Assembly: GCA_013287475.1 (NCBI GenBank)
Contig: JABDDT010000027.1
Location: 444-36,125, forward strand
Origin: Bacteroidota bacterium
Lineage (GTDB): Bacteria; Bacteroidota; Bacteroidia; Chitinophagales; Chitinophagaceae
Direction: 5' to 3'
Length of the DNA: 35,682 nt
The notes under the pieces: generated by a model
What the model saw: only the letters and a program-made list of their open reading frames with translations
What the model was told of the DNA's origin: nothing
The model's database searches: none
Shown here: piece by piece, positions 163-24,481 of the stretch
How positions within the stretch are numbered: position 1 is the stretch's first letter
Layout of the letters: each line of letters opens with the position of its first letter
Position numbers and translations under genes: made by a program

Positions 163-202
163 TATACTCCTATACTCCTATACTCTTATACTCCTATACT
201 AC
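163..202. repeat. Octamer tandem array (TATACTCC)x5
   Basis: Five consecutive 8-bp units: TATACTCC, TATACTCC, TATACTCT, TATACTCC, TATACTAC. The last unit contains the TAG stop of prfC (199-201 on the minus strand). The same octamer, read on the other strand as GTATAGGA/GTATAAGA, recurs at 24407-24438 beyond the M13 peptidase gene. This belongs to the wider set of 7/8-bp arrays at gene ends in this window. Confidence 0.9.
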
Positions 203-1785
203 TTGTGTATCTCCGAAGTATAATGAAACTCTATCTCGGGATTATTGGTGATCTCCGTTTTCAGGAACCACTCACTTTGTGCGAGATAAACCATATTCCC
301 GTCCTTATCCTCAGCAATATTATTTTGCTTGAATCTGGCGAAGTCAAAGAGCTTTTTCTCATCATTACTCGTTATCCAGCAGGCTTTGAAAAAAGGAAGT
401 GTATTGAATTGAACAGATGCCGAATATTCATGCAGTAGTCTGTATTGAATGACTTCAAATTGTAACTCGCCCACACATCCAATTATTTTTTTGTTACCGC
501 CAAACTGAGTGAATAATTGCGCCACGCCTTCATCTGTTAATTGTAACAATCCCTTTTCGAGCTGTTTGGTTTTCATGGGATCTTTATTCTGGACTTCCTT
601 AAATATTTCTGGTGAAAAAGAAGGTATACCGGTGAAATAAAAATTGGCTCCTTCTGTGAGTGTATCCCCGATTTTGAAATTCCCGGTGTCGAATAGGCCG
701 ACTACATCGCCAGGAAATGCTTCATCTATAACATCCTTGTCACGCGCAAGAAAACTATATGGATTGCTGAAACGGATGTCTTTATTCAAACGGACATGAT
801 GGAAATATTTATTTCTTTCAAATTTCCCGCTGCAGGCCCGGATAAATGCAATCCGGTCACGATGCCTGGGATCAAGATTTGCATGGATCTTGAAAACAAA
901 ACCGCTGAATTTTTCGTCCTCAGGACAAACTGCACCGTCAGTCGTAGGCCGGCATTGCGGTACCGGCGCGATTCGGATAAAATTATCCAGCATTTCACGT
1001 ACGCCGAAATTATTAATGGCAGATCCAAAAAATACCGGTGCAATTTTTCCACTGAGGTAATCTTCAATAGCAAGTGGTCCGTAAACGCCATCCACCAGCT
1101 CCACATCTTCACGTAATATGGATGCATCTTTTTCACCGAGTTTTTCATCCAGCAATGATGTACTGAGATCCCCGATTTGAACTACGTCCTCATCAGATGC
1201 TTTTGTATTCGCAGTAAATAGAATCAGATTTTTATCGTGCAGGTTATAAACACCTTTAAAATCTTTACCATTATTAATGGGCCAGGTAAGCGGATGTAAT
1301 TTGATTTGCAGCTCATTCTCAATTTCCTCCATCAGTTCAAACCTGTTCTTGCCATCACGATCCATTTTATTTACAAAAACTATGATCGGCGTGTCGCGCA
1401 TACGGCAGACTTCTGTCAGTTTTCGGGTTTGTTCTTCAACACCGTTAACACTGTCTATTACAAGAATTACACTGTCCACAGCCGTTAATGTTCGGTAAGT
1501 ATCTTCGGCAAAATCTTTATGTCCCGGTGTATCCAGCAGGTTTATCAGTTTATCCTTATATTGAAAACTCATTACGGAAGTGGCCACAGAGATGCCGCGC
1601 TGGCGCTCTATTTCCATGAAATCGCTGGTGGCATATTTTCTGATCTTATTACTTTTAACGGCACCTGCTGTTTGAATTGCACCTCCAAATAAAAGGAATT
1701 TTTCGGTCAGCGTCGTTTTACCGGCGTCCGGATGGGAAATGATGGCGAATGTTCTTCTTTTCTCGATTTCTGATTTATAACTCAT
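199..1785 (-). CDS. prfC: Peptide chain release factor 3
   Basis: A translational GTPase that removes RF1 or RF2 from the ribosome after peptide release. The 528 residues match the usual RF3 length. The G1 loop HPDAGKTT lies at residues 18-25, followed by DTPGH (G3, about residue 86) and NKMD (G4, about residue 140). The switch region reads [13 protein letters not shown], as in RF3 rather than EF-G. The C-terminal half contains the [10 protein letters not shown] segment typical of the family. The ATG start is supported by an upstream -7 box about 35 nt away. The stop codon lies inside an octamer repeat array. It stands alone with no obvious operon partner. I am confident of the assignment; other translational GTPases lack this pattern. 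Confidence 0.97.
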
Positions 1786-1820
1786 ACTATGGGACCGGAT
1801 AAGCTTTCTCCGGAAGCGCG

Positions 1821-1828
1821 CAAAATTA
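1821..1828 (-). promoter_or_regulatory. Candidate -7 box for prfC
   Basis: The minus strand reads TAATTTTG, an exact match to the Bacteroidota -7 consensus TAnnTTTG. TTCG lies 17 nt further upstream as an imperfect -33 element. The predicted transcript would begin about 30 nt before the prfC ATG. Confidence 0.5.
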
Positions 1829-1857
1829 AGAAGTTCCTGTTGATGCGAAGTATCTTT

Positions 1858-4707
1858 CTAAAGATTGGACAATCTGCTGTTATAACCCTTTTCGAGAATA
1901 TTCAACGGTAGAATCAGCTCCCATTGATTTGGTCCCCTTCCTTCATAGTCAGCATCCAGGAGACGGCTGTACCGGATTCCAAAACTCAAAGGAAGCTGGT
2001 TCCACCATTGTGTGTCCAGATATATTTCAAGACCAACTGAACGGTATTGAGATTGTACACCTGGACCATTTGTAGCAAAATAAGGTACTCCTGTATAATC
2101 GTAGTATGCATTGGCACGGATTCTAAAAAAGTAAATAAGATTTGCAAACCCCCAGTCAGGATATACAAGCGGAAGATTATAATTGAACCCTATCGTAAAC
2201 ATCTGATAGAAGTTTTCTCCGGAATAACCCCTTGCAAATGGAAAGTTGTTGGTAAATCTGACCTGGTTTAATGAATCACGCTGTTGCACTGCAGTATTAA
2301 TTACAATACTATTGGTAGCTGTCAGTCCCGGGAAATAAAAATTGGCAGACGCCAGAACCTGGTTCCCGGAAATATTGGTTATAGCCCGGTTATATTGCAA
2401 CAATAAGGTTTGCGCAAATGATGGATTGATTTGAAGTCTGCCTGTCTGAAGCTGGTGTCTAAAAAATAATTGCGGATCCAGACTGAAATAGGAAGTGTTT
2501 TTAATACTGTCTTTAAACGATCCCTGAAAGTACTGCTGGTGCCAGGTGATATTGCTTCCGCCTTCCAGGCTTGTAAGCCACCTGCCCCTGCTTAAATTCA
2601 GTGGGATGGAAAATCCTGCATAACTAAGCAATTCATTCCAGTATATTTTTTGATTGCCATAATAACTGTTCCGATCAAGAATATATTCTGTACCGATATT
2701 AAGAAAGGGAAATAATCCTCCGTAAATAAAATCCATTCCGGCATTCTTCGATTGTTCATTGCGATTAACGCCTACAAATATTTCCGATTGAAAGGTATTC
2801 AATACATTCTCACCCAAAAGAGACAGTGTATAATTCGGGTCATTAACATAGGGTCTCCAGCTGTAGAAATTAAAAAGACGTGTGAATGAATTATATGGTT
2901 TCACAGGAAATACTGAATCAGGAATAGGATGAGGTATCTGGAATGGAGGATTATTCAGCGCGTATACCCTGTGTTTTTCGGATGTGTCCAGTGCAGGAAA
3001 AATTTCCGGCACATTGCGGAATGCTTTTTTTGCATTCGTAGTTTGAACATGGTATCCTGCACTCGTAAAACTATTCCAGGTTAATTTCCCATATCCCCCT
3101 GATAGCTGATAGTTTCCGGCACTTGCTTCGTCATTCATCTCGTAAATCTGTCCTTCATGCCAACAGAAACCCTGGTCGTGTTCATTGAAAGTACGTGTAA
3201 AATAAATCCGGTTATTTTCTACAGAAATAAAACCGAGTGGTTCCATTGACCAGCCAACAAGTAATTGCTGATTACCCGAAAGAATGTCGACCTGCATCAG
3301 ACCCATCTGTCCTTTTTTATTTCTGACGGCTGTTACCAACTGTCCGTCAGAAAAAAATTTAGGATAGGTATAAATCAGCATGTCGGGATTTGGAATTTGT
3401 CTCAGGATTTTACCTGATTGAATATCCAGGATGTCAAGGGTACTTTTTCCTGTCGTCGACATGTTTACTGCAACCAAAGATTTTCCGTCGGGAGAGATAT
3501 CCGGAGAAAAATATTTTGTCTTTCCACGAAGCCGGGTATCTTTTTTTGTATCGAGATCTATTATACGGAGTACAGAATAATCACGCCACCCCCAGCGGAG
3601 ATCCGGTTCATACGCTGTGTAAACAATTTTACGGTTCCTGTAAGTAAAGGTCTGATCCAATACGACTGCCTGGAATTTTATCCGGATAAGTTTTTCAGTG
3701 CCGGTATGTTGTAAAACAAAATCAGGAGGGAGACGGTAGCTGCTATTCAGGAATACCAGGTGATTACTGTCGGTGAATTGCGGAAATAATTCATCTGCGA
3801 CGAAATGAGGCATTTTTTTACCATACATCGCAGGCTCACTTGTAAAGGCATCTTCCGGCAGCTGATCCCGGAAATAGTCCATGGCCCTCACTCTGAAAGT
3901 ATCAAAGTTTACGCCCGAATTTCTTTTTATTGAATTTTGAAGTGGATAGAATAAACCTTTAAATGCAGCAGCTTCCCTGGCAGTTTTATCCCAGAAATTA
4001 GATCCATATTTTTCTCTTCCAAAGGCCACCAGCATATATCCCAAAGGATACCAGTTTGGTGTATAATCCCGGTATGATCCATTGCGAAGTTTCATCCAGG
4101 AATAATTCTTTTCTGAAACCCAGAGACTTTCAAATCCTGCGAGGAAAAGTGGAAGTCGTCCCCTGCCCTGCTGACTGACCAGTGTTTCCTGGAAAACAGC
4201 GTCTCCTTCAAAAAACCAGTTAGGGACAGAAAGACTATTGGCAAATGCAAGACCGTCCTGACCAAACAGAATGTAAAATGCTTTAGAAAGGCCTAAACGA
4301 AAATTATTGTATTGCTGCACATGCCGGTATTCATGAATGGCCAGGGTCTGATACCAGGGCAGACTTCCAAGATCAAAACTATTTTGCTCAGGAGTAAGCT
4401 GGAATTCACTTCTGAAAGGAGCAAGCTGTACATATCCGTTGGGGATGGTTGTCAGATCGTGAAAAACAATATCAATTGGTTTTTGCTGGTCACCAATGGT
4501 TGACAAAGTGGTTTTACTCAGAGCTGTAACCAGGAATGCCACTTCACGTGCTTCGCTATCCAGTCCCGGAGGAAAAATGATATTTGCCGGAATTGAATGA
4601 ACTACTTTCCACTTTACAGAAGGAGGTGTCCCCCCAAATATCTGGGCACTGGCATGGTCAAAGCTGCAGACGACTAATAAACAAATAAGGTATTTGATCC
4701 TGTTCAT
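1858..4707 (-). CDS. Outer-membrane peptidase/beta-propeller/barrel protein
   Basis: About 949 residues, likely exported to the outer membrane. The open frame extends to a TTG at 4728, but the ATG at 4707 starts a clean signal peptide (MNRIKYLICLLVVCSF...SAQ), so I use it. Near residue 125 is HEYRH, a zinc-metallopeptidase HExxH motif. The downstream WFFEGDAVFQE supplies a plausible third ligand, as in gluzincin (peptidase MA-like) enzymes. The middle resembles TolB/WD40-like propeller blades (YFSPDISPDGKSLVAV and similar). The last 300 or so residues are rich in aromatic alternating strands, as in an outer-membrane barrel. Only 67 nt separate the open frame from the divergent glycosyltransferase gene. 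Substrate unknown; the domain reading is from motifs only. Confidence 0.8.
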   Translation of the reverse strand: MNRIKYLICLLVVCSFDHASAQIFGGTPPSVKWKVVHSIPANIIFPPGLDSEAREVAFLVTALSKTTLSTIGDQQKPIDIVFHDLTTIPNGYVQLAPFRSEFQLTPEQNSFDLGSLPWYQTLAIHEYRHVQQYNNFRLGLSKAFYILFGQDGLAFANSLSVPNWFFEGDAVFQETLVSQQGRGRLPLFLAGFESLWVSEKNYSWMKLRNGSYRDYTPNWYPLGYMLVAFGREKYGSNFWDKTAREAAAFKGLFYPLQNSIKRNSGVNFDTFRVRAMDYFRDQLPEDAFTSEPAMYGKKMPHFVADELFPQFTDSNHLVFLNSSYRLPPDFVLQHTGTEKLIRIKFQAVVLDQTFTYRNRKIVYTAYEPDLRWGWRDYSVLRIIDLDTKKDTRLRGKTKYFSPDISPDGKSLVAVNMSTTGKSTLDILDIQSGKILRQIPNPDMLIYTYPKFFSDGQLVTAVRNKKGQMGLMQVDILSGNQQLLVGWSMEPLGFISVENNRIYFTRTFNEHDQGFCWHEGQIYEMNDEASAGNYQLSGGYGKLTWNSFTSAGYHVQTTNAKKAFRNVPEIFPALDTSEKHRVYALNNPPFQIPHPIPDSVFPVKPYNSFTRLFNFYSWRPYVNDPNYTLSLLGENVLNTFQSEIFVGVNRNEQSKNAGMDFIYGGLFPFLNIGTEYILDRNSYYGNQKIYWNELLSYAGFSIPLNLSRGRWLTSLEGGSNITWHQQYFQGSFKDSIKNTSYFSLDPQLFFRHQLQTGRLQINPSFAQTLLLQYNRAITNISGNQVLASANFYFPGLTATNSIVINTAVQQRDSLNQVRFTNNFPFARGYSGENFYQMFTIGFNYNLPLVYPDWGFANLIYFFRIRANAYYDYTGVPYFATNGPGVQSQYRSVGLEIYLDTQWWNQLPLSFGIRYSRLLDADYEGRGPNQWELILPLNILEKGYNSRLSNL

Positions 4708-4778
4708 CAATAATTTGATCTGGAACAAAAATTGAAATTAGGCTAAGGTGTTCATAGAAAAAACAATCATAATTCCTA

Positions 4779-4795: not shown

Positions 4796-6304
4796 ATGAA
4801 AGTAAAGTCACATTTATTTTCCCTTTCAAACAACCTGGATTCAATTCTGGCCGCCCTGATCGGCTTTTTTCTGATTCAGATATTTTCCAGGCATAGTGGA
4901 ATCGGGATATCTCCGGATTCTGTAACCTATCTAAGCGCTGCAAGGCACCTGGTTCATGGCAAAGGATTCATTTCATTTGACGACCTGCCGGTTGTAGACT
5001 TTCCATTTGCTTATCCTTTTTTTTTAACCGTCATTTCTTTTTTTACCAGGCTGGACCCCCTTCAATTTGGTCCTTTGCTGAATGGACTCCTGTTCGGAAT
5101 ACTGTTGTATGTAAGTGGCGGAATTATGAATGGGTTTAACAAACCTTCCGCATGGTATAAACGTATTTTGCTCATATGTATTCTATTGAGTCCGGCAATG
5201 CAGGAGGTCTATTCTTATCTATGGTCAGAAACCATTTTTCTTATCCTGATCCTTTTTTTCATTATTAGTTTTTCAAATTATTTAAAACAACATACCACAG
5301 GCTGGTTCCTGATTTCAATCCTGATTTGTTCTTTAGCCTGCTTAACCCGTTATGCAGGTGTCTTTTTGATCATAACCGGCTTATGTCTTATATTTTTTAA
5401 CGGGGCTTTTACCTGGCGTAAAAGAATTCTCGATTGTGTACTGTTTGGAAGTATTTCTTTCTCTTTGCTGCTCATCAATATTATTCGTAATCTCAAAGAT
5501 ACCGGACTCGCTATGGGCCCCCGTCCCAGGAATGATGAAGGAATCCTGAAAATCATGGAATATTTCGGTGGCGTGCTTTGTGACTGGCTCTTGCTTGACA
5601 GAAAGCCTCTGTTAGCGATTGCGCTGACTTTTATATTGTTGATACTTTTTGTTGTCACCATTTTATTTAATAAAAACAGTAAAAAATCAAAGTATGGATT
5701 TGAATATACAATGGCGGTTACCGGATTGATCTATTGTATTTTCATGATTATTACCTCAAGCTATACCCGGTACGAACAATTTACAAACCGGTTATTGTCA
5801 CCCATTTTTATTCCTCTCTTGTGGAGCTTTAGTTGTTGGATATCGGGATTTTTTAAAAATATATCCATCCGGTTGAAATGGATTTATGGTATTCTTTTTT
5901 TATTGATTACGGTTTGGTTTTTGAATGTTCAGGTACGTGCTGATTATGAATATTATGATGGAGTGAAGGATGCAGGAATTCCAGGTTACCGGGAAGACCC
6001 CTTTGTTCAGTCTGAAATTGTTCAGTTTCTTGAAAAAAATAAAAATGTTTTTGACCCCCGGATTCCGATCTATTCAAATGCGGGTGAAGCAGTATATTTT
6101 GTTAGCGGGATAGCTGCGCGACAGTTACCATTTCTGGATTTCCCCGCACAGGTTCAGCAGTATTATACCGGAAATAATAATTACCTGGTTTGGTTCAATG
6201 ACCTTGATAATCCTTCCATGCCCGATCTGAAATCCATACTGCAACATAAGAACATGGTAACGGTAAAGGAATTCCCCGATGGCGGAGTGTACTTAACGAA
6301 GTAA
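4796..6304 (+). CDS. GT-C type membrane glycosyltransferase
   Basis: A 502-residue polytopic membrane protein with about ten hydrophobic helices. The first periplasmic loop reads ISPDSVTYLSAARHLVHG, which matches the acidic-residue-plus-YLxxA pattern of GT-C (PMT/ArnT/RgtA-like) transferases that use polyprenyl-phosphate sugars. The C-terminal 100 residues form a soluble periplasmic tail. Family knowledge suggests transfer of a sugar to an envelope lipid or glycan; donor and acceptor cannot be read from the sequence. It is divergent from the peptidase/barrel gene and convergent with the DUF1080 gene. Its TAA stop is the first triplet of a heptad array. Confidence 0.75.
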   Translation: MKVKSHLFSLSNNLDSILAALIGFFLIQIFSRHSGIGISPDSVTYLSAARHLVHGKGFISFDDLPVVDFPFAYPFFLTVISFFTRLDPLQFGPLLNGLLFGILLYVSGGIMNGFNKPSAWYKRILLICILLSPAMQEVYSYLWSETIFLILILFFIISFSNYLKQHTTGWFLISILICSLACLTRYAGVFLIITGLCLIFFNGAFTWRKRILDCVLFGSISFSLLLINIIRNLKDTGLAMGPRPRNDEGILKIMEYFGGVLCDWLLLDRKPLLAIALTFILLILFVVTILFNKNSKKSKYGFEYTMAVTGLIYCIFMIITSSYTRYEQFTNRLLSPIFIPLLWSFSCWISGFFKNISIRLKWIYGILFLLITVWFLNVQVRADYEYYDGVKDAGIPGYREDPFVQSEIVQFLEKNKNVFDPRIPIYSNAGEAVYFVSGIAARQLPFLDFPAQVQQYYTGNNNYLVWFNDLDNPSMPDLKSILQHKNMVTVKEFPDGGVYLTK

Positions 6305-6332
6305 TTATTAATTATCAATTATTAATTATTAA
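6302..6332. repeat. Heptad array TAATTAT, left arm of inverted pair
   Basis: Units TAATTAT, TAATTAT, CAATTAT, TAATTAT plus a partial unit. It starts with the TAA stop of the membrane glycosyltransferase. The same 31 bases recur inverted at 6392-6422, so the two arms can fold into a 31-bp AT-only stem around a 59-nt loop. It may act as a bidirectional transcript end between the two convergent genes. Confidence 0.9.
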
Positions 6333-6390
6333 CGACTGGATTTGCATTTACTTTTAAGAATTTCGATTATTCCGAGATTCATCTCTCAGC

Positions 6391-6422
6391 ATTAATAATT
6401 AATAATTGATAATTAATAATTA
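6391..6422. repeat. Heptad array ATTAATA, right arm of inverted pair
   Basis: Units ATTAATA, ATTAATA, ATTGATA, ATTAATA, ATTA: the reverse complement of 6302-6332, including the single variant unit. It ends in the TAA stop of the leftward DUF1080 gene (6422-6420). Confidence 0.9.
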
Positions 6423-7214
6423 CAAAGGTCTTACCCAAATATTCCTGTAACTAATCGGTTCGCTGGCATCTCCGTGCGCCTGGAGTTTTATGGGCGATGT
6501 ACCATGTTTCTTGTAATATGGTTTACCGATATATTGTGTAACACCAGTCAGGACATAATTATTTTGCACCAGCACTCCATTTAAAAAAACAGTTACACGT
6601 GCGGGTGAATCAAGGCTACCGTCATCTTTGAATCGGGGGGCAGTCCATACTACTTCGTAGTCCTGCCATTCACCTGGTTTGCGGGAAGGGTTAGCCAGAG
6701 GAACACTTTGTTTATAAATACTTCCTACCTGACCGTTAACATAAGTTGTATTATTATAATTATCCAGTACCTGCAATTCATATCCAACATCGCCTCCATT
6801 ATCGGATATGTCTGCAAGAAAAACTCCGCTGTTTCCTCTAGCCTGTCCGGAGCCAGTAATATTTTCAGGAATTCTGAATTCAACATGGAGTTGAAAATCC
6901 ATGAATCTTTGACGGGTAAGGATTCCACCTGCTTTTTTTTCAACGGTCATAATACCATCATGTACTTTCCAGCCTGCTGCTTTGGTTGAATCTTTACCCT
7001 CCGCTCTCCACATATCGAGATTTTTTCCGTCGAAAAGAACTATGGCATCGGAGGGCGGTTCAGAGTCTGTTTTACCTGGCGTCACTATTTTGGGAACAGG
7101 GCTATAAAATTCAGTGTCTTCGGGTTTTTGTGCCTTAACGAAATTTAAAACAAAGCAAAATGAAATAAGCAGAATGAAGAATTTTTTACCTGATGGTATA
7201 GCAAGTGCTTGCAT
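6420..7214 (-). CDS. DUF1080 / 3-keto-disaccharide hydrolase family protein
   Basis: An exported protein of about 264 residues. The open frame extends to a TTG at 7220; I choose the ATG two codons in, which still gives a signal peptide (KKFFILLISFCFVLNFVKA). The mature part has the full DUF1080 (PF06439) jelly-roll pattern: IVLFDGKNLDMW, WKVHDGIMTVE, GGILTRQRFMDFQLHVEF, RGNSGVFL, YELQVLDNY, GEWQDYEVVW and the closing SYRNIWVRPL. Members of this family cleave glycosides previously oxidised at C3, and they are found in the periplasm or on the cell surface. Two GMC oxidoreductases that might supply such oxidised sugars lie about 12 kb away. It is 32 nt downstream of the HU-like/SPOR gene on the same strand. 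Family assignment is firm; substrate unknown. Confidence 0.88.
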   Translation of the reverse strand: MQALAIPSGKKFFILLISFCFVLNFVKAQKPEDTEFYSPVPKIVTPGKTDSEPPSDAIVLFDGKNLDMWRAEGKDSTKAAGWKVHDGIMTVEKKAGGILTRQRFMDFQLHVEFRIPENITGSGQARGNSGVFLADISDNGGDVGYELQVLDNYNNTTYVNGQVGSIYKQSVPLANPSRKPGEWQDYEVVWTAPRFKDDGSLDSPARVTVFLNGVLVQNNYVLTGVTQYIGKPYYKKHGTSPIKLQAHGDASEPISYRNIWVRPL

Positions 7215-7252
7215 ATTCAATTTTATTTAAAAATGAAGATAGCAAAAAAGCA

Positions 7253-8182: not shown

Positions 8183-8187
8183 TGGAT

Positions 8188-8816: not shown

Positions 8817-10238
8817 TTGCCTTACGAACCCATTTCGGTTTTCGACATTTTCAAGATTGGTGTAGGTCCTTCAAGCTCACATACTTTAGGTCCCTGGCGC
8901 GCGGGTCAGGCTTTTATCAAGTCCCTGGAACAGAAAGCCATGTTGTCAGACTTAACTCATCTCCAGATTCTTCTTTATGGGTCACTGGCAAAAACTGGAA
9001 AGGGACATGGAACCGATATTGCCATCCAGCTGGGGCTGGCAGGTTATGATCCGGTGGAAATTGATACATCGGTCATTCCTTCAGTTATTGAAACGATCCG
9101 GGATAAAAAATCCCTCGGACCAGAGCTTTCTATCCGGTTTGATCCTTCGGAAGATATCATATTTCTGATGAATGAATCCCTCCCCCATCATCCCAATGCC
9201 CTTAGCTTTCTGGCAGATTTTAATGGACATAGTTCAATTGCTGAGACTTATTATTCCATCGGAGGGGGTTTTATTGAGAAAGAAGCCGGTTCCCTGACTG
9301 AAAAGAAAATGGTGCAACTGCCTTTTCCCATAGATACAGCAGAAAACCTGCTGCACTGGTGCAGGAAAACAGGATTCTCCATTCATGAAGTCGTAATGGA
9401 AAACGAACTGGCATGGCGTGAAGAATCTGAAATAAAAAAACAACTGGGGAAAATTTGGAAAGTAATGAGGGATTGCATGTATAAAGGCTGCCACACTGAG
9501 GGTGTTTTACCTGGAGGACTTCAGGTGAGCAGGCGGGCTGCTGCCCTGAATAAGAAATTACTTAAAGGGAGAATTTACAGTGATTATTCCGGGTGGGTAA
9601 AGGCAATAAAGGAGGGCGGAAAAGATTTTCAATACATACTCGACTGGGTAAGTTGCTTTGCGCTGGCGGTAAACGAAGAAAATGCTTCATTTGGGAAAGT
9701 AGTAACCGCTCCAACCAATGGAGCAGCAGGAGTTATTCCTGCAGTGCTCCAATACTTTATTTGTTTTACGGATGAATTCCAGGAAGAAAAAGTTCTTTCC
9801 TTTTTATTAACTGCATCTGAAATCGGAAGCATATTTAAAAAAGGAGCAACATTGTCTGCAGCAATGGGAGGATGCCAGGCAGAAATTGGCGTTTCATCAG
9901 CTATGGCTGCAGCTGCATTAACGGAATCCATGGGTGGAACCCAACGACAGGCCCTGATGGCCGCAGAAATCGCCATGGAGCATCACCTGGGCCTGACCTG
10001 TGATCCCATCGGAGGATTGGTACAGGTACCCTGCATAGAAAGAAATACGATGGGCGCTATAAAGGCTATTACTGCCTCTCAACTGGCTTTACAAAGCATG
10101 CCGGATTTTGCGAAAGTTTCCCTGGATGCTGTAATCCGTACCATGTGGGATACAGCGCTGGACATGAACAGCAAATACAAAGAAACTTCCGACGGTGGCC
10201 TCGCCGTGCATATTCCTCTTAGCCTGCCGGAGTGCTAA
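8817..10238 (+). CDS. sdaA: L-serine ammonia-lyase, iron-sulfur type
   Basis: Deaminates L-serine to pyruvate and ammonia using a [4Fe-4S] cluster. This is the single-chain form, 473 residues. The N-terminal beta domain starts [20 protein letters not shown]. The alpha domain carries [25 protein letters not shown] and [12 protein letters not shown]. Cys353, Cys395 and Cys406 have the 42- and 11-residue spacing of the cluster ligands in the Legionella enzyme. The chain also ends in a cysteine (Cys473), as that enzyme does, where the C-terminal cysteine occupies the cluster in the resting state. The start is TTG at 8817; no ATG precedes the conserved region. It is convergent with the aldo/keto reductase, with heptad arrays between them. 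Confidence 0.96.
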
Positions 10239-10243: not shown

Positions 10244-10278
10244 AGCCTAAAGCTTAAAGCCAAAAGCCAAAAACTAAA
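10244..10278. repeat. Heptad array AGCCTAA, five units
   Basis: AGCCTAA, AGCTTAA, AGCCAAA, AGCCAAA, AACTAAA, starting five bases after the sdaA stop. It is followed by the flank AAAACTAGTGTGG, which recurs with one change after the array at 11856-11890. Confidence 0.88.
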
Positions 10279-10308
10279 ACTAGTGTGGTAGTGCGATTGG
10301 AAGAACCG

Positions 10309-10336
10309 CCAACGGCCAACGGTCAACGGCCAACTG
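10309..10336. repeat. Heptad array CCAACGG, four units
   Basis: CCAACGG, CCAACGG, TCAACGG, CCAACTG. It overlaps the 3' end of the leftward aldo/keto reductase: the TCA triplet of unit 3 is its TGA stop, and the last residues (VGR) are encoded by the repeat. Confidence 0.88.
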
Positions 10337-11279
10337 TAAGTGCTTCCCCCGACAACATTCTGATAGATTCTTCATCCAAATTAATATCGGCTGACATCAG
10401 CAAATCCTTTAACTGATCCTCTTTCGTTGCACTCGCAATAGGCGCTACAACTGCAGGACGGGTCATCAGCCAGGCAAGTGCAATAGTTGCAGGAGAAGAC
10501 TTATACTTTGCAGAAACTTCATCCAGTGCTGTTAGGATTTTCTTTCCCCTCAAATCCAGGTATTTTTTTATTCCCTGTCCCCGTACACTTTTATTGAGAT
10601 CTTGTTCTGAACGGTATTTACCAGTTAAAAATCCGCTGGCGAGGGCATAGTAAGAAATAATTCCAATTCCTTCCTTTACACAAAGCCACTGAAGATCTTT
10701 TTCAATACTTCGATCATACAGATTATATGGCGGCTGCAGGGTTTCATAACGGGCATAATTATTCGCTTTACTGACTTCCAAAGAAAGTGTAAGCCTGTCA
10801 GCTGTAAAATTGGATGCACCGATAGCCCTTACCTTTCCTTCTTTTATCAGGTCGGTGAAAGTGCTCAATGTCTCTTCCATGGGCGTATGCGGATCGTCAT
10901 CATGCGATTGATACAGATCAATATAATCTGTTTGAAGTCTTTTTAATGAATCTTCAACAGCGTGGCGTATATACTTTCCTGAAAGCCCCAATTTACCCGG
11001 ACCCATCGGCTTGCCTACTTTGGTGGCGATCACGACATCCTTCCTGTTATTTCTTCTGCTTAGCCACTGACCAATGATCGTTTCTGATTCTCCCCCTTTA
11101 TTACCCGATACCCAGGTTGAATATACATCGGCCGTATCAATTAAGTTAAAGCCCGATCGGGTAAATTCATCCAATAACTTAAAGGCCATGGATTCGTTTA
11201 CTGTCCATCCAAAAACATTGCCTCCAAATGCAAAGGGTGCGACCTGGATCCCGGACCTGCCCAAATTCCTGTTTTCCAT
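10323..11279 (-). CDS. Aldo/keto reductase
   Basis: An NADPH-dependent carbonyl reductase of the AKR superfamily, 318 residues, cytoplasmic with no signal peptide. The fold motifs are in order: GGNVFGWTV near residue 19, LIDTADVYSTW (catalytic Asp and Tyr, about 46-56), VVIATKVG (catalytic Lys, about 82), QSHDDD (catalytic His, about 125), RAIGASNF and a C-terminal PIASATKEDQLKDLL cofactor-binding segment. It resembles the YhdN/Tas-like general AKRs rather than a potassium-channel subunit. It is divergent from the GNAT gene (75 nt) and convergent with sdaA. Its stop codon is inside a heptad array. The substrate cannot be read from the sequence. Confidence 0.93.
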   Translation of the reverse strand: MENRNLGRSGIQVAPFAFGGNVFGWTVNESMAFKLLDEFTRSGFNLIDTADVYSTWVSGNKGGESETIIGQWLSRRNNRKDVVIATKVGKPMGPGKLGLSGKYIRHAVEDSLKRLQTDYIDLYQSHDDDPHTPMEETLSTFTDLIKEGKVRAIGASNFTADRLTLSLEVSKANNYARYETLQPPYNLYDRSIEKDLQWLCVKEGIGIISYYALASGFLTGKYRSEQDLNKSVRGQGIKKYLDLRGKKILTALDEVSAKYKSSPATIALAWLMTRPAVVAPIASATKEDQLKDLLMSADINLDEESIRMLSGEALTVGR

Positions 11280-11354: not shown

Positions 11355-11876
11355 ATGGATGCAAATACTCAGGGCATTGAAGTTCGTGAAGTGTCGGAAG
11401 AAGATTTATGGCAGGTAAGAGATCTGGCATTTCAGATATTTCCGGTGACTTACCAGGATATTGTGGAGCCTGGGCAGATCGATTATATGATGGATCTTAT
11501 TTATAGTCCGGAAGCCCTGGTAGCACAATGGGATTCCGGACAAAATTTTCTGATTGTTTATTCTGAAGAACTACCTGTGGGTTTTGCTTCCTTCACCAGG
11601 CTAAATGAAGAGGGCGACTTCAAGTTGAATAAGATATACCTTGATAATCGTTTACAGGGAAAAGGCCTGGGAAAATGGTTATTGAATGATGTGATATCCC
11701 GTGTGAAATCTGCCGGAGGAAGAGCGCTGCTATTAAATGTCAACCGTCACAATAAAGCAAGGATCTTTTATGAGAAAATGGGATTCTCTCTTCTGAAAGA
11801 AGATCTGATTGATATAGGAGGCGGATATTTTATGGATGATTACGTGATGGAACTTAGCCTAAAGCCTAAAGCTTAA
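11355..11876 (+). CDS. GNAT family N-acetyltransferase
   Basis: A 173-residue single-domain acetyl-CoA-dependent acetyltransferase. Motif A reads RLQGKGLGKWLL (about residues 98-109), matching the Q/RxxGxG/A acetyl-CoA pyrophosphate loop. It is preceded by the strand FKLNKIYLD and followed by LLLNVNRHNKARIFYEKMGF, the usual motif B. Acceptor unknown; small-molecule or protein N-termini are both possible. The ATG start at 11355 opens a normal beta-alpha N-terminus (IEVREVSEEDLWQVRDLAF). The final residues SLKPKA and the TAA stop are encoded by a heptad array that continues past the gene, so the natural C-terminus may have been altered by the repeat. Confidence 0.92.
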   Translation: MDANTQGIEVREVSEEDLWQVRDLAFQIFPVTYQDIVEPGQIDYMMDLIYSPEALVAQWDSGQNFLIVYSEELPVGFASFTRLNEEGDFKLNKIYLDNRLQGKGLGKWLLNDVISRVKSAGGRALLLNVNRHNKARIFYEKMGFSLLKEDLIDIGGGYFMDDYVMELSLKPKA

Positions 11877-11890: not shown

Positions 11891-11926
11891 AACTAGTATG
11901 GAAATGTTGAATTAATTACTAGTCGG

Positions 11927-11969: not shown

Positions 11970-11972
11970 AAC

Positions 11973-14848: not shown

Positions 14849-14862
14849 AGCCCAAAGCCTAA
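14835..14862. repeat. Heptad array AGCCTAA overlapping YfhO-type stop
   Basis: GGCCTAA, AGTCTAA, AGCCCAA, AGCCTAA. The TAA ending unit 2 (14846-14848) is the stop codon of the YfhO-type gene. It is an inverted relative of the array at 14941-14998. Confidence 0.88.
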
Positions 14863-14940
14863 AACTTCTTTTTAGATCGTTGCAATTTTTTACTAATGGT
14901 ATTATTCAAAACCATTTCATATTCAAATTAAACATTAGTT

Positions 14941-14998
14941 TTAGGCTTTAAGCTTTAAGCTTTAAGCTTTGGGCTTGAGAGGCTTTAGGCTTTAGGCT
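14941..14998. repeat. Heptad array TTAGGCT/TTAAGCT, eight units
   Basis: TTAGGCT, TTAAGCT x3, TTGGGCT, a 9-bp irregular unit, TTAGGCT x2. It ends 8 nt before the ATG of the glycosyltransferase at 15007. It is the opposite orientation of the 14835 array, so the two can pair across a 78-nt interval. This is the longest array in the window and one of only two that lie close upstream of a start codon (the other is at 18742). Confidence 0.92.
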
Positions 14999-15006
14999 TT
15001 TGAATA

Positions 15007-16127: not shown

Positions 16128-16175
16128 AAAAATGGTTAATGAAAGAAGTGTTTCACATCCTCATTAACCATTTTT
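16128..16175. terminator. Bidirectional hairpin terminator
   Basis: A perfect 15-bp inverted repeat: AAAAATGGTTAATGA (16128-16142) and TCATTAACCATTTTT (16161-16175) with an 18-nt loop. The stem is flanked by an A-run on one side and a T-run on the other, so it can serve both the glycosyltransferase on plus and the PUR-domain gene on minus. Confidence 0.75.
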
Positions 16176-16194
16176 AAAATCTTAAAAACCTTGA

Positions 16195-16236
16195 GCCTTA
16201 CACCTTACGCCTTAAGCTTTACGCCTTAAGCCTAAA
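16195..16236. repeat. Heptad array GCCTTAA/GCCTTAC, six units
   Basis: GCCTTAC, ACCTTAC, GCCTTAA, GCTTTAC, GCCTTAA, GCCTAAA. It abuts the TGA stop of the leftward PUR-domain gene (16239-16237) with no gap. Confidence 0.88.
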
Positions 16237-16707
16237 TCACCATTTATCAACTTCTTCCAGATGATCCGGAGAAGATGATGTAGGTTCGGGTGTTGTAGAA
16301 ACTGCTTCCACTTTTACAGCTTCCACTTCACTAATTTCAGTAACCTGTTCAACGGGAATTGAAACTGCATCATGATTTTCATGGTGTTCATGATGCCCAT
16401 CACCGTTTTCATGTACCTGGTCGTGATTAAAAGCATCGAAATCAAAATCAGGCATCAAATCAGTCTTAACATAGTCTACAGCTTCAGTAAGGGCTTTGAT
16501 AAACTTGTTGAAATCTTCTTTGTAAAGGAAGATTTTGTGACGGTCGTAACCATCTTCATTAAATTTTTTGCGGCTTTCAGTAATCGTTAAATAATAATCA
16601 TTGCTTCTTGTAGCCCTGACATCAAAAAAATAAGTCCTACGCTTACCGGCCCTGATTCGTTTGCTGTAAACACTCTCCATTCTTTTGTCATTGTTCTCGT
16701 ACGCCAC
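16237..16707 (-). CDS. PUR-domain (DUF3276) nucleic-acid-binding protein
   Basis: About 156 residues. The open frame continues to 16815, but the conserved protein begins at GTG 16707 (AYENNDKRMESVYSKRIRAG), and the upstream translation is unlike the family, so I take the GTG. Residues 9-85 contain the PUR repeat (SKRIRAGKRRTYFFDVRATR, then YYLTITESRKKF and KIFLYKEDFNKFIKAL), as in DUF3276 proteins. These are related to Pur-alpha and to the Borrelia regulator BpuR, and bind single-stranded DNA or RNA. The C-terminal half is acidic and low in complexity (HENGDGHHEHHENHD). It lies 114 nt downstream of the ABC exporter. Likely a global nucleic-acid-binding regulator; the target is unknown. Confidence 0.85.
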   Translation of the reverse strand: MAYENNDKRMESVYSKRIRAGKRRTYFFDVRATRSNDYYLTITESRKKFNEDGYDRHKIFLYKEDFNKFIKALTEAVDYVKTDLMPDFDFDAFNHDQVHENGDGHHEHHENHDAVSIPVEQVTEISEVEAVKVEAVSTTPEPTSSSPDHLEEVDKW

Positions 16708-16745
16708 GGTTGTTGTTTTAGGTAAAAAATAAAAGCAAGCGCATA

Positions 16746-16753
16746 AAAATATA
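16746..16753 (-). promoter_or_regulatory. Candidate -7 box for PUR-domain gene
   Basis: The minus strand reads TATATTTT, 7 of 8 matches to TAnnTTTG, 38 nt before the GTG start at 16707. Placing a promoter here fits the choice of GTG over the longer frame, because the longer start would lie upstream of the transcript. Confidence 0.3.
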
Positions 16754-16821
16754 ATATTGTTATAGAACTGGCAAAAAATTCCCCAATTTGTCGCGACAAG
16801 CGTGTTTTTACGCAAATCCCG

Positions 16822-18741: not shown

Positions 18742-18842
18742 TTAATTGTTAATTGTAAACGGAAACTTCAAAAAGTTCTGAAAGAATTAATAGTGCAGAT
18801 CCATTTCAGCGTTAACAATTAACAATTGACCATTAACAATTA
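18742..18842. repeat. Inverted heptad arrays TTAATTG/TTAACAA
   Basis: TTAATTG x2 at 18742-18755 and TTAACAA, TTAACAA, TTGACCA, TTAACAA at 18812-18839. Positions 18744-18761 and 18810-18827 are complementary at 17 of 18 bases around a 48-nt loop. The right array ends in the TAA stop of the leftward GMC gene (18842-18840). The left array is 24 nt upstream of the ABC exporter start. Confidence 0.85.
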
Positions 18843-20522
18843 TAAGTTCTGCTTCTTCATTTCGCTAACAGCGTATCCCGCCGCCCTCGCGGTTAATGCC
18901 ATATATAAAATAGAAGGACTCTGATTCGCAGTACTGGTCATACACGCGCCATCAGTGACAAATACATTCTTACATTCATGTAACTGATTCCATCCATTCA
19001 GCAAAGAAGTTTTAGGATCTTTTCCCATGCGGCAGCCACCCATTTCATGAATGTCTCTGCCCGGCGCCCAATGATTATCATATTGCTCGATATCTTTTAC
19101 ACCTCCGTTAGAAAGTGTTTCGGATGCCTGTTCAAGAAAGTCTTTCAGAAGAAGTTCATCATTATGATCATACGCAACATCTGTTACCAGCAGCGGAATA
19201 CCCCATTGATCCGTTTTATCCTTGCTGAGATAAACCCTGTTGGATTCTTTCGGGATGGTCTCTCCCTGCATATACATATAACATCCCCAGGAGCCTGCCT
19301 CTGATAAGGCTTTCTTATAATCTTCTCCGATTTCAGGTCCGTCGGTAGTTGCTCCTCTCCGCCTGAAACATCCCATGAATGCCATATAGCCGCCAACAAA
19401 ATCCATATCCTGTTTTTTCAGATTCCTGAAATTAGCCATCATGGACTCCGCAGGTTTTCTTCCGTAATAGTATGAATCCAGGAAACCATCAATATTACCT
19501 CCGACAGAACCGCGGTAGTTCTGGTGGCAAATATACTTTCCCAGAAGCCCGTTGTCATTTCCGAGTCCATTTGGAAAACGATTCGATTTTGAATTTAAAA
19601 GAATAAGGTTTGTATTCAGTGCAGACGCATTCATGAAGATGATGCGTGAAAAATAATCGGTCGTTTCATGTGTATTGCTGTCAATAATACGAACGCCGAC
19701 GGCTTTGTTTTTCTTTTCATCATAGATGATGGAATGCACAACACTGAACGGACGAACAGTAAGATTTCCTGTGCTTGCCGCCCATGGTAAAGTAGATGAG
19801 TTGGAACTAAAGTATCCGCCAAATGGACAACCACGCATGCAAAGATCACGCGACTGACATTGTGCGCGGCCCTGCTTTGCATGGATTTCTTTTGCTTCCG
19901 TAAGCTGGGCCCAGCGTCCCTGTATCATGAAGCGGTCTTTATATTTCGAACTTATTTTTTTCTGAAGATCCTTTTCAACACAATTGAATTCGAAGGGAGG
20001 CAGATAATCTCCGTCCGGCATAGCTTCCAGTCCGTCTCTATTTCCGCAGATACCGGCAAATTGTTCAACATGTGAATACCAGGGAGCGATATCGTTATAT
20101 CCGATAGGCCATTCAATTCCATATCCATACCGGGCCGGCGCTGTAAATTCATATTTGCTCCAGCGGGGACAGGCCCTTCCCCAGATCAAAGATTTTCCGC
20201 CGACCTGGTAACCACGGATCCACTCAAATGGTTTTTCCTGCACATAGGGATGATCATTGTCCTTTATGAAAAAATGCTGCGTGGATTCATCAAAACCCGC
20301 CGCCTCTGTGATGAGTGGATTTTCTTTTATGAATTTTTCCGGCATCCTTAACCGGTGCGAAAATTCCCAGGGAGCCAGGGTGGCTGTCGGGTAGTCTTTA
20401 ATATGTACCACATCACGGCCTCTTTCCAATACCAGTGTTTTCAGGCCGGCTTCGCAAAGTTCTTTTGCGGCCCAGCCTCCGCTTATTCCTGATCCAACTA
20501 CAATCGCGTCGTATGTATTCAC
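18840..20522 (-). CDS. GMC family FAD oxidoreductase (second of tandem pair)
   Basis: A 560-residue flavoprotein of the glucose-methanol-choline family. The dinucleotide-binding motif YDAIVVGSGISGGWAAKE begins at residue 4, and VGGKSLIWGRACPRW is the FAD-contacting region. A cysteine-rich stretch (CQSRDLCMRGCPFGGYFSSN) precedes the substrate domain. The C-terminus has HEMGGCRMG and STANQSPS. Compared with the upstream paralog, the Asn of the canonical QNPS motif is Ser here (Ser535) with an Asn two residues earlier. It starts with GTG overlapping the upstream stop (GTGA), so translation is probably coupled. No signal peptide is visible. Likely oxidises a sugar or alcohol; substrate unknown. 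Confidence 0.9.
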   Translation of the reverse strand: MNTYDAIVVGSGISGGWAAKELCEAGLKTLVLERGRDVVHIKDYPTATLAPWEFSHRLRMPEKFIKENPLITEAAGFDESTQHFFIKDNDHPYVQEKPFEWIRGYQVGGKSLIWGRACPRWSKYEFTAPARYGYGIEWPIGYNDIAPWYSHVEQFAGICGNRDGLEAMPDGDYLPPFEFNCVEKDLQKKISSKYKDRFMIQGRWAQLTEAKEIHAKQGRAQCQSRDLCMRGCPFGGYFSSNSSTLPWAASTGNLTVRPFSVVHSIIYDEKKNKAVGVRIIDSNTHETTDYFSRIIFMNASALNTNLILLNSKSNRFPNGLGNDNGLLGKYICHQNYRGSVGGNIDGFLDSYYYGRKPAESMMANFRNLKKQDMDFVGGYMAFMGCFRRRGATTDGPEIGEDYKKALSEAGSWGCYMYMQGETIPKESNRVYLSKDKTDQWGIPLLVTDVAYDHNDELLLKDFLEQASETLSNGGVKDIEQYDNHWAPGRDIHEMGGCRMGKDPKTSLLNGWNQLHECKNVFVTDGACMTSTANQSPSILYMALTARAAGYAVSEMKKQNL

Positions 20523-22246: not shown

Positions 22247-22344
22247 GTTGTCAGATTATATATTTAGCGAAAATGAATGAACGACTTAGAATAGCAAAGG
22301 TTATAAAAATTTCGTTACCTTCTCATTTACAAAATAAACTCATT

Positions 22345-24372
22345 ATGCGCAACAGTTTGTGTTTTCTTATCCTGGTATTAATATTTGTATCCTGTCATAC
22401 CACGGAAAAAAAAGAAGCACCCGATTTTCTTGCTGAAAATATTGATACCACTGTGAACCCCGCTACAGATTTCTTTTTGTATGCAAATGGCGGGTGGATT
22501 AAAAAGAACCCCATTCCTGCGGATCAAAGTGCATGGGGAGTTGGTTTCTTAGTGCAGGAAGATATCTACAACCGCCTCCGCGCAATAAATAAAAAAGCCC
22601 TAAATGAAAAATCTGAACCCGGCAGCGTATCTCAAAAAATTGGTGACTTCTGGTTTAGCGCCATGGATTCAGACGGAATCGAAAAGCAAGGCATACAACC
22701 ACTGCAACCACAGCTTCAGGAAATTGAAAAAATCGGAACAGTTGAAGATCTTTTACGCGTAAGCGCGAAACTTCAGAATGAAGGAGTTGACGTATTGCTC
22801 GGTGAAGATATTTCGCAGGATGAAAAGAACAGCGATAAGATTGCATTTCATATTTATCAGGGCGGTCTCGGAATGTCGAACCGCGATTATTATTTTAATA
22901 CGGATGCAAAAACATTGAAAGTCCGTAAAGCTTATCAAACATATTTATACAATGCTTTCAGGTCAATGGGCAAAGACAGCTTAGTGGCCAGATCTGCTGC
23001 CGGTGCGGTTTATGATCTGGAAACCAGGCTGGCAAAGGCTTCACGAAAATTAGAAAACCTCCGCGACCCTGATTCCAATTATCATAAAATAGATCTGGTT
23101 ACAATGCAAAAGATTTATTTCAGGATCGGCTGGAGTGAGTTTTTTAAAAATACAGGTGTAAAATCTCTTGACTCCGTAATCGTGGGACAACCGGAATTTC
23201 TTGTGGCATTGAACCAGGAATTGTCCAAGACTCCCCTGGGAGTTTGGAAAAATTACCTGTCCTTCCATTTACTGAAGAATTCCGCCAGGTATATGGACCA
23301 GGCTCTTTATAAAGATTTATTCACCTATTCGCAAAGCATCAGCGGAGTTGAAAAACCTAAGGCCCGCTGGAAAAGAGTGCTGGATGCAGAAGAAACAGCG
23401 ATGGGAGAAGCGTTGGGACAATTATTTGTGAAGGAATATTTTCCTGAAAAAACAAAACAACGCTATAACGATATGGTGGAAGCGATCCGGGATGCATATA
23501 AGGAAAGAATTATGCACCTTGCCTGGATGAGTGACAGTACAAAGCAGAGGGCACTGATTAAACTTTCTAAAGTAACAAAAAAAGTAGGCTATCCTGATAA
23601 ATGGAAAGACTTCAGTGCGCTGGTAATAGACCGCGGTCCCTGGGTTTTGAATATGCAAAGAGCATCAGAATGGTGGACAAATTACTATGTAAATAAACTG
23701 GGCAAACCGGTTGACAGAACAGAATGGGGAATGTCTCCTCAAACATACAATGCTTATTATAATCCGAGTAATAATGAGATCGTATTGCCTGCGGGTATTT
23801 TTATTGTTCCCGGCAAGAGGGATGATGAACTGGATGATGCATTTGTATATGGATATGCGGCTGCTTCAACGATCGGCCATGAGATTACACATGGATTCGA
23901 TGATCAGGGAAGAAAATTTGATGAAGCCGGAAACCTGCGCGACTGGTGGCAGCCTAATGACACGAAACAATTCAACGCCAGTGCAGCCAGGATCATTCGC
24001 CAGTTTAATGAATTTGTTCCTGTTGATACATTACGTGTGAACGGAGAAGCCAGTCAGGGAGAAAATATTGCCGACCTGGGTGGTGTGTTGCTGGGATGGG
24101 ATGCATTCTCAAAAACAGAGGCATTTAAAAAAGGAGAAAAAATCGGCGGCTTTACACCTGCCCAGCGTTATTTTCTGGGATATGCATACGGCTGGTTGTA
24201 TAGTGAAAGAAAAGAAGTACTCGCAGCTCAGCTGATGACCGATGTACACGCACCTTCAAAGGAAAGAGTCAACGGACCCATGGCAAATATTCCCGCTTTC
24301 TACGAAGCATTCAATGTTAAACCCGGTGATAAAATGTATCGTCCGGATAGTTTGAGGGTAAGCATCTGGTAA
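22345..24372 (+). CDS. M13 (neprilysin/PepO-like) metallopeptidase lipoprotein
   Basis: A zinc endopeptidase of family M13, about 675 residues from the chosen start. An earlier ATG at 22273 is in frame, but the ATG at 22345 opens a lipoprotein signal peptide (MRNSLCFLILVLIFVSC) with cysteine at residue 17, so I use it. HEITH at residues 512-516 gives two zinc ligands, and ENIAD (573-577) gives the third and the supporting Asp. NAYYNPSNNEIVLPAGI and the closing CxxW-like end (here RVSIW) are family signatures. It probably degrades peptides at the outer membrane. Divergent from the GMC pair. An octamer array starts five bases after its stop. Confidence 0.95.
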   Translation: MRNSLCFLILVLIFVSCHTTEKKEAPDFLAENIDTTVNPATDFFLYANGGWIKKNPIPADQSAWGVGFLVQEDIYNRLRAINKKALNEKSEPGSVSQKIGDFWFSAMDSDGIEKQGIQPLQPQLQEIEKIGTVEDLLRVSAKLQNEGVDVLLGEDISQDEKNSDKIAFHIYQGGLGMSNRDYYFNTDAKTLKVRKAYQTYLYNAFRSMGKDSLVARSAAGAVYDLETRLAKASRKLENLRDPDSNYHKIDLVTMQKIYFRIGWSEFFKNTGVKSLDSVIVGQPEFLVALNQELSKTPLGVWKNYLSFHLLKNSARYMDQALYKDLFTYSQSISGVEKPKARWKRVLDAEETAMGEALGQLFVKEYFPEKTKQRYNDMVEAIRDAYKERIMHLAWMSDSTKQRALIKLSKVTKKVGYPDKWKDFSALVIDRGPWVLNMQRASEWWTNYYVNKLGKPVDRTEWGMSPQTYNAYYNPSNNEIVLPAGIFIVPGKRDDELDDAFVYGYAAASTIGHEITHGFDDQGRKFDEAGNLRDWWQPNDTKQFNASAARIIRQFNEFVPVDTLRVNGEASQGENIADLGGVLLGWDAFSKTEAFKKGEKIGGFTPAQRYFLGYAYGWLYSERKEVLAAQLMTDVHAPSKERVNGPMANIPAFYEAFNVKPGDKMYRPDSLRVSIW

Positions 24373-24377
24373 ATCAA

Positions 24378-24440
24378 GTGTGAGAGTGTGAGAGTGTGAG
24401 AGTGAAGTATAAGAGTATAGGAGTATAAGAGTATGTGAGT
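24378..24440. repeat. Octamer array GTGTGAGA / GTATAAGA
   Basis: Three GTGTGAGA units (24378-24401), a five-base break, then GTATAAGA, GTATAGGA, GTATAAGA, GTATGTGA (24407-24438). The second block is the reverse-complement octamer of the array at 163-202. It begins five bases past the M13 stop codon. Confidence 0.9.
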
Positions 24441-24446
24441 TGAACT

Positions 24447-24481
24447 CATATCTCATATCTCATAACCCATAACCCATATCC
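24447..24481. repeat. Heptad array CATATCT/CATAACC, five units
   Basis: CATATCT, CATATCT, CATAACC, CATAACC, CATATCC. It lies between the octamer array and the end of the leftward DUF481-like gene (24505). Two different periods side by side in one junction suggest independent expansions. Confidence 0.88.

Follow-up and report, generated by a model that had tools for sequence, protein, structure and literature searches.

Paired, mirrored arrays of 7- and 8-bp tandem repeats bordering intergenic gaps in a soil bacterium of the Chitinophagaceae

According to a paper of 2015, heptamers occur in excess in numerous bacterial genomes and had at that time received no detailed treatment in the literature (PMC4692102). 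We analyzed a 35,682-nucleotide stretch of contig 27 from a soil bacterium of the Chitinophagaceae (JABDDT010000027.1, positions 444 to 36,125; hereafter the window), whose intergenic gaps carry short tandem arrays with units of 7 or 8 bp. The closest match to these arrays that we found in print is the GGGAATC repeat of Xanthomonas. That repeat has a period of 7 and is mostly intergenic; on the sense strand it is found close to stop codons or across them, and on the antisense strand up to 50 bp upstream of open reading frames (ORFs). Two genomes were reported to have 70 and 75 instances of two arrays lying close together in convergent orientation, and 16% of the repeats lie between convergent ORFs compared to 7 to 8% between divergent ones. 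Repeat length varies between species, the single or paired type is usually preserved, and 83% of repeats have the same gene context between two species. The one unit is G-rich and able to fold as a quadruplex, and transcripts start or stop more often at quadruplex-forming repeats than at control repeats (PMC4692102).

The arrays described here resemble the Xanthomonas repeats in that they are heptamers, intergenic, placed at stop codons, arranged in facing pairs, and of outward polarity at both gap edges. Because facing pairs, stop-codon position, and polarity were already present in the Xanthomonas repeats (PMC4692102), we regard the arrays here as a variant of a known, unexplained kind. The chief differences are the many unit families, the octamers, and the different units at orthologous gaps: more than 10 consensuses occur here, few of them G-rich, octamers stand beside heptamers (44 arrays beside 109), and of the 11 orthologous gaps that could be scored, 7 differ in unit family. 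The consensus GGGANTN was matched by none of the listed units in the leading families.

Tandem heptamers are also mentioned for Calothrix (PMC4692102). The TAACTGA repeats of the Beggiatoaceae are tandem heptamers present in many gaps, patchy across lineages, and found as well in five Bacteroidetes, where some gaps hold other heptamer repeats too (PMC4679880). TAACTGA is a single unit lying mostly just ahead of start codons in forward orientation, whereas the arrays here are stop-codon centered, mirrored, and built from many units. Among prokaryotic satellites, similar periods are known from Burkholderia (6, 7, and 8 nt) and from a Chloroflexus heptamer with many copies; the passages of PMC6749651 consulted mention neither facing pairs nor a position at stop codons. 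Among the matches listed for our literature queries (titles and starts of abstracts), none dealt with such arrays in Chitinophagaceae. The short tandemly repeated repetitive (STRR) sequences of filamentous cyanobacteria are dispersed tandem heptamers, and an earlier note on this DNA, made from the sequence alone, had compared the arrays to them; the likeness is one of form only. Repetitive extragenic palindromes (REP) and bacterial interspersed mosaic elements (BIME), which go with REP-associated tyrosine transposases (RAYT), are paired inverted short repeats at gene 3' ends. Unlike these, the arrays here consist of tandem 7- and 8-mers rather than one palindrome, and no PF01797 was found in the host genome. 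They share with bidirectional intrinsic terminators a place between convergent genes and a predicted ability to form hairpins, but their arms are tandem repeats around a core of ∼0 to 100 bp, and a tight GC stem with a T-run is usually absent.

The arrays of the window are real and beyond chance. A strict scan over periods 4 to 13 returned seven arrays of period 7 and three of period 8; the other periods were empty, and 100 block shuffles gave no array at any period. A looser scan returned 10 arrays of period 7 and 5 of period 8; 100 shuffles gave 10 arrays over all periods (0 of period 7, 1 of period 8). We then sampled the host assembly (G000; 3.16 Mb, 137 contigs, 74% complete) with 40 stretches (0.80 Mb) plus the window, together 26% of the genome. 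Three of the stretches (L032, L051, and L052) were picked for hits and the other 37 were taken by contig order. In this sample, strict arrays numbered 109 at period 7, 44 at period 8, 5 at period 11, and 2 at period 12, with none at periods 4 to 6, 9, 10, or 13; the shuffled sample gave one over all periods. For the multi-genome strict scan, shuffles were made of G000, G005, and G008 and gave 1, 1, and 0 arrays. Strict arrays of period 5, 6, or 9 never exceeded three in any genome sample, and the earlier note was not refuted by its own test of these periods. At low scores, Tandem Repeats Finder (TRF) also lists periods 9, 11, 12, and 13 (9, 19, 28, and 9 arrays; 2, 9, 7, and 9 in the shuffle).

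Array density was 21 per 100 kb (looser detector, window and the three hit-picked stretches excluded), which by extrapolation amounts to several hundred arrays per G000 genome. The 14-mer AGCCTAAAGCCTAA, allowing one mismatch, was found at 363 places in the whole assembly and its reversed pattern at 2; adjacent units within one array are counted separately here. The earlier note held that units differ in sequence, which is right only in part: they fall into recurring families that it had overlooked, with more than 10 consensuses recurring in G000 and several of them one change apart. Recurring units include the heptamers AAAGCCT, AACGCTT, AATAATT, AACAATT, and AACGGTC and the octamers ACACTCTC, AAGAGTAT, ACTCCCAT, and ACACTACC.

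Two further features had escaped that note, namely, the mirrored polarity of the arrays and the family shared by a gap's two arrays. Unit orientation is fixed for each family: read from the gene edge into the gap, it is the same at both edges. Among 41 two-array gaps in G000, 38 had the order + −, 1 had − −, 2 had an ambiguous array, and none had − +. Outward arrays outnumbered inward ones 55:1 in convergent gaps, 44:16 on the 3' side and 30:5 on the 5' side of co-directional gaps, and 14:7 in divergent gaps; in the window, 13 of 13 were outward. The reference list for polarity was built from G000 gaps and pairs, which makes these ratios partly circular, and the test of polarity is therefore G005, the only genome out of sample. 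There, the outward:inward ratios were 36:1 (convergent), 31:2 (co-directional 5'), 14:1 (divergent), and 44:14 (co-directional 3') over both sets of stretches. Ten of the first 11 G005 stretches, like several from G016 and G019, had been picked for hits; a further 20 from G005 followed contig order, and three of these 20 happen to hold 14-mer hits. The contig-order part by itself gave 19:1, 11:1, 5:1, and 15:7, respectively. Arrays of ambiguous polarity were excluded from all ratios (7 of 189 in G000; 11 and 19 in the two G005 sets). Neighboring arrays up to 150 bp apart were same-family and inverted in 29 of 62 cases, compared to a mean of 7.6 and a maximum of 14 in 200 re-pairing trials.

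Position was scored against genes called with our own dicodon script rather than a standard caller. Only 5 of 189 arrays in the G000 sample lay within gene bodies; the nearest gene edge was a 3' edge for 118 and a 5' edge for 59. Sixty-one of the 118 3'-end arrays contained the gene's stop codon (2-base tolerance), 31 were within 12 bp of it, and 26 were farther away. Genome-wide, arrays hug stop codons, as had been proposed, and the earlier note's other refutation test, a lack of enrichment there, did not refute it either. Among gaps of 40 to 800 bp in the 37 contig-order stretches of G000, arrays occurred in 21 of 54 convergent, 52 of 198 co-directional, and 13 of 108 divergent gaps; the G005 figures were 16 of 37, 28 of 149, and 5 of 51. 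Arrays were thus more frequent in convergent than in divergent gaps in both genomes (P = 1.6e-4 in G000; P = 4e-4 in G005). The preference for 3' ends is real, but arrays also occur in divergent gaps and ahead of start codons. The earlier placement at gene 3' ends stands for stop codons and convergent gaps but misses the arrays in divergent gaps and on the start-codon side, and the statement that no divergent pair carries arrays is correct for the window and not for the genome.

Among the other 57 genomes searched, AGCCTAAAGCCTAA was found at 217 places in G005, 13 in G016, and at most 4 in the rest. Over 400 kb of G005 taken by contig order, strict arrays numbered 52 at period 7, 22 at period 8, 3 at period 11, 2 at period 12, and 1 at period 13, with none at periods 4 to 6, 9, or 10. 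G003 had no strict array in 100 kb, though it is equally close by its YfhO protein (76% identity). Intergenic autocorrelation was in excess at lags 7 and 14 in G020, G025, and G026 and not in G003, G002, G009, and G028 (3 to 10 kb of intergenic DNA each). In 74 further Bacteroidota loci, some congeneric (557 kb), periods 7, 8, and 11 were represented by 7, 4, and 7 arrays, respectively, and the remaining periods from 4 to 13 by none. Six of the seven period-11 arrays are pieces of one long array, ATTGAATGACC/ATCGAATGACT, at L175:327-478, on a contig that also holds arrays of periods 7 and 8. Single units can be narrowly distributed: AGTGTGAGAGTGTGAG occurred at 139 places in G000 and once in each of two of the other 32 congeners, and of 396 genomes drawn from the order, with neither G005 nor G016 among them, 2 contained TAACGCTTAACGCTTAACGC. 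A reversed-pattern control is invalid for AGTGTGAGAGTGTGAG, since the reversed octamer is a rotation of itself.

We next compared gaps between 73 orthologous neighboring gene pairs of G000 and G005. Arrays were present in 23 of the G000 gaps and 17 of the G005 gaps, and 13 gaps had them in both species versus ∼5 expected if independent (our own arithmetic, confounded by gap length). At 7 of 11 scored gaps the two species had different unit families. Arm matching was higher within a species than across species in 9 of the 11 (1 opposite, 1 tie) and in 9 of 12 gaps of a partly overlapping set. Cores between arrays were mostly dissimilar, with 35 BLAST pairs among 114 array gaps that by eye are mostly residual array units. 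These data agree with the earlier argument that the arrays share period and position and are not copies of one element. The gap between yfhO and a glycosyltransferase gene illustrates the pattern by eye: AGCCTAA stands on both sides in G000 and G005, AACGCTT on the left in G016, a TTGACGG-type hairpin in G008 and G006, no array in G003, and ordinary hairpin-plus-T terminators in some more distant species. By locus, the TTGACGG hairpins were read in L076 and L077 and the ordinary terminators in L079, L081, and L085.

Convergent gaps with arrays also fold far more stably than shuffled sequence. In convergent gaps, the median fold z score was −5.0 with arrays (74% below −2; n = 27) and −0.92 without (23%; n = 22); in co-directional gaps, the medians were −1.71 (n = 49) and −0.26 (n = 135). 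Core hairpins with GC pairs were found in 5 of 80 convergent and co-directional gaps with arrays (1.6 in the shuffle) and in 29 of 163 without (8.6 in the shuffle; P = 0.017). A GC-containing short-loop stem followed by a T-run was present in 2 of 27 convergent array gaps (arrays masked) and 6 of 23 array-free ones, and a hairpin scan with loops of 3 to 8 gave 2 of 27 and 3 of 22; these terminator scans are crude, with loops of 3 to 8 or up to 12, and miss long-loop hairpins such as that at 16128-16175 of the window. By eye, at L026 6332 G005 has a terminator-like hairpin in place of the octamer array of G000.

The arrays are best explained as paired arms of long inverted repeats that border intergenic gaps and evolve fast. 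Because core hairpins are rarer in 3'-end gaps with arrays, we favor array pairs as bidirectional 3'-end hairpins: tentatively, and with rather less than even confidence, we read the arrays as slippage-grown arms of such hairpins that partly replace GC-rich terminators, a reading that leaves the period of 7 or 8 and the fixed polarity unaccounted for. Replication slippage would lengthen and shorten the arrays, and local template switching could give both arms one family. The selected trait would be a hairpin acting in both directions where convergent or adjacent transcripts end, serving termination or 3'-end protection. The earlier note, too, had offered transcript ending, mRNA 3' stability, and slippage scars as inference, and they keep that standing. 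If selection acts on the hairpin, the letters may drift while place, period, and complementarity persist. In these paired repeats, place can persist while sequence does not. With ∼21 arrays per 100 kb, many families, a sharp 7-8 window, strict polarity, and close relatives of which some have arrays and some do not, this genome makes the old question of how heptamers arise one that comparison can test.

Several results weigh against the hairpin reading. Stable folding follows from the arrays being inverted, whatever their cause. The anti-association with core hairpins had a P of 0.056 with a stricter stem and of 0.15 and 0.06 in convergent gaps alone, and masking the arrays left less sequence to search in their gaps. 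Arrays and a separate core hairpin coexist at L014 3674, L014 10584, L052 2230, and window 16128-16175; at L014 10584, by eye, the arrays flank a terminator-like hairpin that G003 has without arrays. A single detected array was present in 63 of 114 array gaps, 33 of 62 neighboring pairs were something other than same-family inverted (11 of unlike period, 7 direct, and 15 of other kinds), and outward arrays occur in divergent gaps too. Within-species matching of arms won strictly over cross-species matching in only 3 of 11 orthologous gaps. Mirroring of the order of variant units was barely better inside one gap (median, 0.79) than across gaps that share a family (median, 0.74; 22 of 36), and bases flanking the arrays paired no more than chance.

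A function-free origin is nearly as likely. Here, the arrays would be a mutational product of slippage and template switching that purifying selection spares only at gene edges outside promoters and terminators, with lineage bursts reflecting a weakness in replication or repair. The lineage-specific counts of AGTGTGAGAGTGTGAG and TAACGCTTAACGCTTAACGC, the lack of strict arrays in 100 kb of the close relative G003, and the absence of fine mirroring in variant order all fit this possibility. However, slippage alone predicts neither the fixed polarity nor the sharp window at periods 7 and 8 (none at 6 or 9 in G000), and 13 of the 23 G000 array gaps with an orthologous gap in G005 have arrays in both, a count that gap length confounds. 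Only 2 of 33 congeners (G007 and G030) had an SbcD match (TIGR00619) above the model's cut-off, and 14 more had weaker ones, in line with a repair weakness; yet SbcD was also not found in the array-free G003, and the model passed its cut-off in only 8 of 14 control genomes. Scarcity of SbcD may permit long inverted repeats, but it does not single out the array-rich species. Likewise, there was no long match to MutS1 (TIGR01070) in G000 or G016, whereas the array-rich G005 has MutS1, and loss of mismatch repair was rejected as the cause. The best MutS1 scores were ∼110 bits in G000 and G016 (assemblies 74% and 77% complete) and ∼900 in most congeners; the missing long match could be due to assembly incompleteness.

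A bolder idea, which we consider unlikely, is that units of 7 to 8 bp are actively written or renewed at both gap edges in the array-rich species of the genus, mirrored and largely independent of sequence. Orthologous gaps would keep the paired structure while the letters are replaced, and the element would be sequence-free and conserved in shape. A length-measuring mechanism would make it and would also lie behind the heptamers of Xanthomonas and cyanobacteria.

More doubtful still is a protein or nucleoid factor that reads tandem units of 7 to 8 bp in DNA or RNA and needs two facing arrays. Facing arrays do keep their polarity whatever the direction of transcription, and their periods are restricted to 7 and 8, as such a factor might demand, but more than 10 consensuses in one genome, some one change apart, and the replacement of units at 7 of 11 orthologous gaps are ill suited to sequence-specific binding. 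It is very improbable that the arrays are fail-safe stop cassettes, in which units with TAA, TGA, or TAG and a period not divisible by 3 place stops in three frames after each gene. In G000, three-frame stops were present in 74 of 118 3'-end arrays when the sense strand is read and in 42 of 118 when the antisense strand is, where perfect arrays of shuffled units would give 49%, and the gene's own stop codon lies inside 61 of the 118. In G005, by contrast, only 20 of 59 had three-frame stops and 20 had none; arrays ahead of start codons and in divergent gaps cannot act so, and periods of 4, 5, and 10 would serve equally, yet they are missing. We therefore rejected this as a general function, since it suits G000 and fails in G005. 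Just as improbable is a mobile or RNA-templated writer, despite many dispersed copies of one unit, a polarity resembling two extended 3' ends, and a few shared cores (a three-copy core and a 20-base piece common to two gaps, below): no Y1 transposase (PF01797) and no reverse transcriptase (RVT_1, PF00078) was found in the array-bearing assemblies G000, G005, G016, and G019 (58 to 80% complete), which discounts RAYT-like and telomerase-like writers, and the mostly dissimilar cores, with none generally conserved, discount a miniature inverted-repeat transposable element (MITE).

In the window itself, TRF recovered all 14 arrays listed by the earlier note to within ∼6 bases, those at 11949-11970 and 18742-18756 being weak. 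Its count of five of six convergent pairs with arrays (6304/6420, 10238/10323, 11876/11973, 16119/16237, and 24372/24505) is upheld; the third pair counts only with a 92-amino-acid (aa) ORF at 11973-12251(−) that the dicodon gene caller overlooked. The sole array-free convergent pair, OmpH (PF03938) and DUF6266 (PF19781), has an ordinary GC-rich terminator-like hairpin at 32782-32802, as that note had said.

The gap at 6300-6426 is a near-perfect mirror. Its left arm is a TAATTAT array (6302-6332, +) over the stop of gene 4796-6304(+), and its right arm is the reverse complement, an ATTAATA array (6391-6422, −) at the stop of gene 6420-7220(−). The two arms pair as a ∼30-bp stem, and 6290-6430 folds at −42.3 kcal/mol. 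In the second pair, an AGCCTAA/AGCCAAA array (10244-10278, +) begins 5 bp past the stop of gene 8817-10238(+), and an AACGGCC array of a different family (10304-10336, −; outward GGCCGTT) covers the stop of gene 10323-11279(−). The third consists of an AGCCTAA array (11856-11891, +) that includes the stop codon of gene 11355-11876(+) and a weak ACAACTA array of 3.1 copies (11949-11970, −) adjoining the conserved 92-aa ORF. In the fourth, a CCTTAAG/CCTTACG array (16189-16233, −; outward TAAGGCG) lies at the stop of gene 16237-16815(−), and an AT-rich hairpin with a 15-bp stem (about 16128-16175) is separate from it. In the fifth, an octamer array given as 24378-24440 is present but is really two adjacent ones, AGTGTGAG (24377-24404, +), past the stop of the peptidase M13 gene 22273-24372(+), and AGTATAAG/AGTATAGG (24406-24434, +; TRF); facing them is a CATATCC/CATAACC array (24447-24484, −; outward GGGTTATGAGATAT), 20 bp ahead of the stop of gene 24505-25533(−).

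Two co-directional gaps of the window carry arrays as well. Between yfhO and the glycosyltransferase gene, a GCCTAAA array (14836-14863, +) covers the stop of the YfhO-family gene 12317-14848(+), and TTTAGGC/TTAAGCT arrays (14940-15002, −) end 4 bp ahead of the glycosyltransferase start at 15007; the fold of 14830-15006 is −59.0 kcal/mol. In the gap 18717/18840, TRF gives a weak left arm of two TTAATTG units (18742-18756, +; 2.1 copies), and a TTAACAA array (18812-18842, −) forms the right arm over the stop of gene 18840-20522(−). The remaining array of the window, the octamer TATACTCC (163-200, −; outward AGTATAGG/AGTATAAG; TRF), covers the stop of the RF3 gene 199-1785(−).

As for neighboring genes, the 92-aa ORF has no Pfam match and adjoins yfhO at 21 of the 29 loci from relatives (35 to 66% identity), and a glycosyltransferase accompanies YfhO in 17 of the 29. 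Puia dinghuensis and Flavitalea sp. BT771 are the named near relatives among the YfhO-protein loci. Two divergent long ORFs at 1858-4728(−) and 4796-6304(+), of 956 and 502 aa, have no Pfam match, and an Rfam scan of the window gave no match.

Fine mirror copying of the arms was discarded, as variant order did not support it, yet single gaps such as window 6304 and L197 of G025 are near-perfect mirrors. The latter is a near-perfect heptamer palindrome, GTTATGGGTTATGAATTATGAG plus its mirror, with variant units in mirrored order; this gap is orthologous to that at L035 17127 and is 14 bp long in G000. With regard to the cores, one of ∼85 bp between AGCCTAA arrays is present in three copies on contig C33 (L043:1312-1395, 7047-7132, and 19693-19777) that are ∼80% alike by BLAST, probably through local duplication. 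An identical 20-base core piece occurs in two AGCCTAA gaps (L031 after 15841 and L038 after 7131), and by eye ∼15 of those 20 bases recur in the window core at ∼14866-14880 beside the yfhO array, a hint that some cores (L031, L038, and the window yfhO gap) were copied along with their array.

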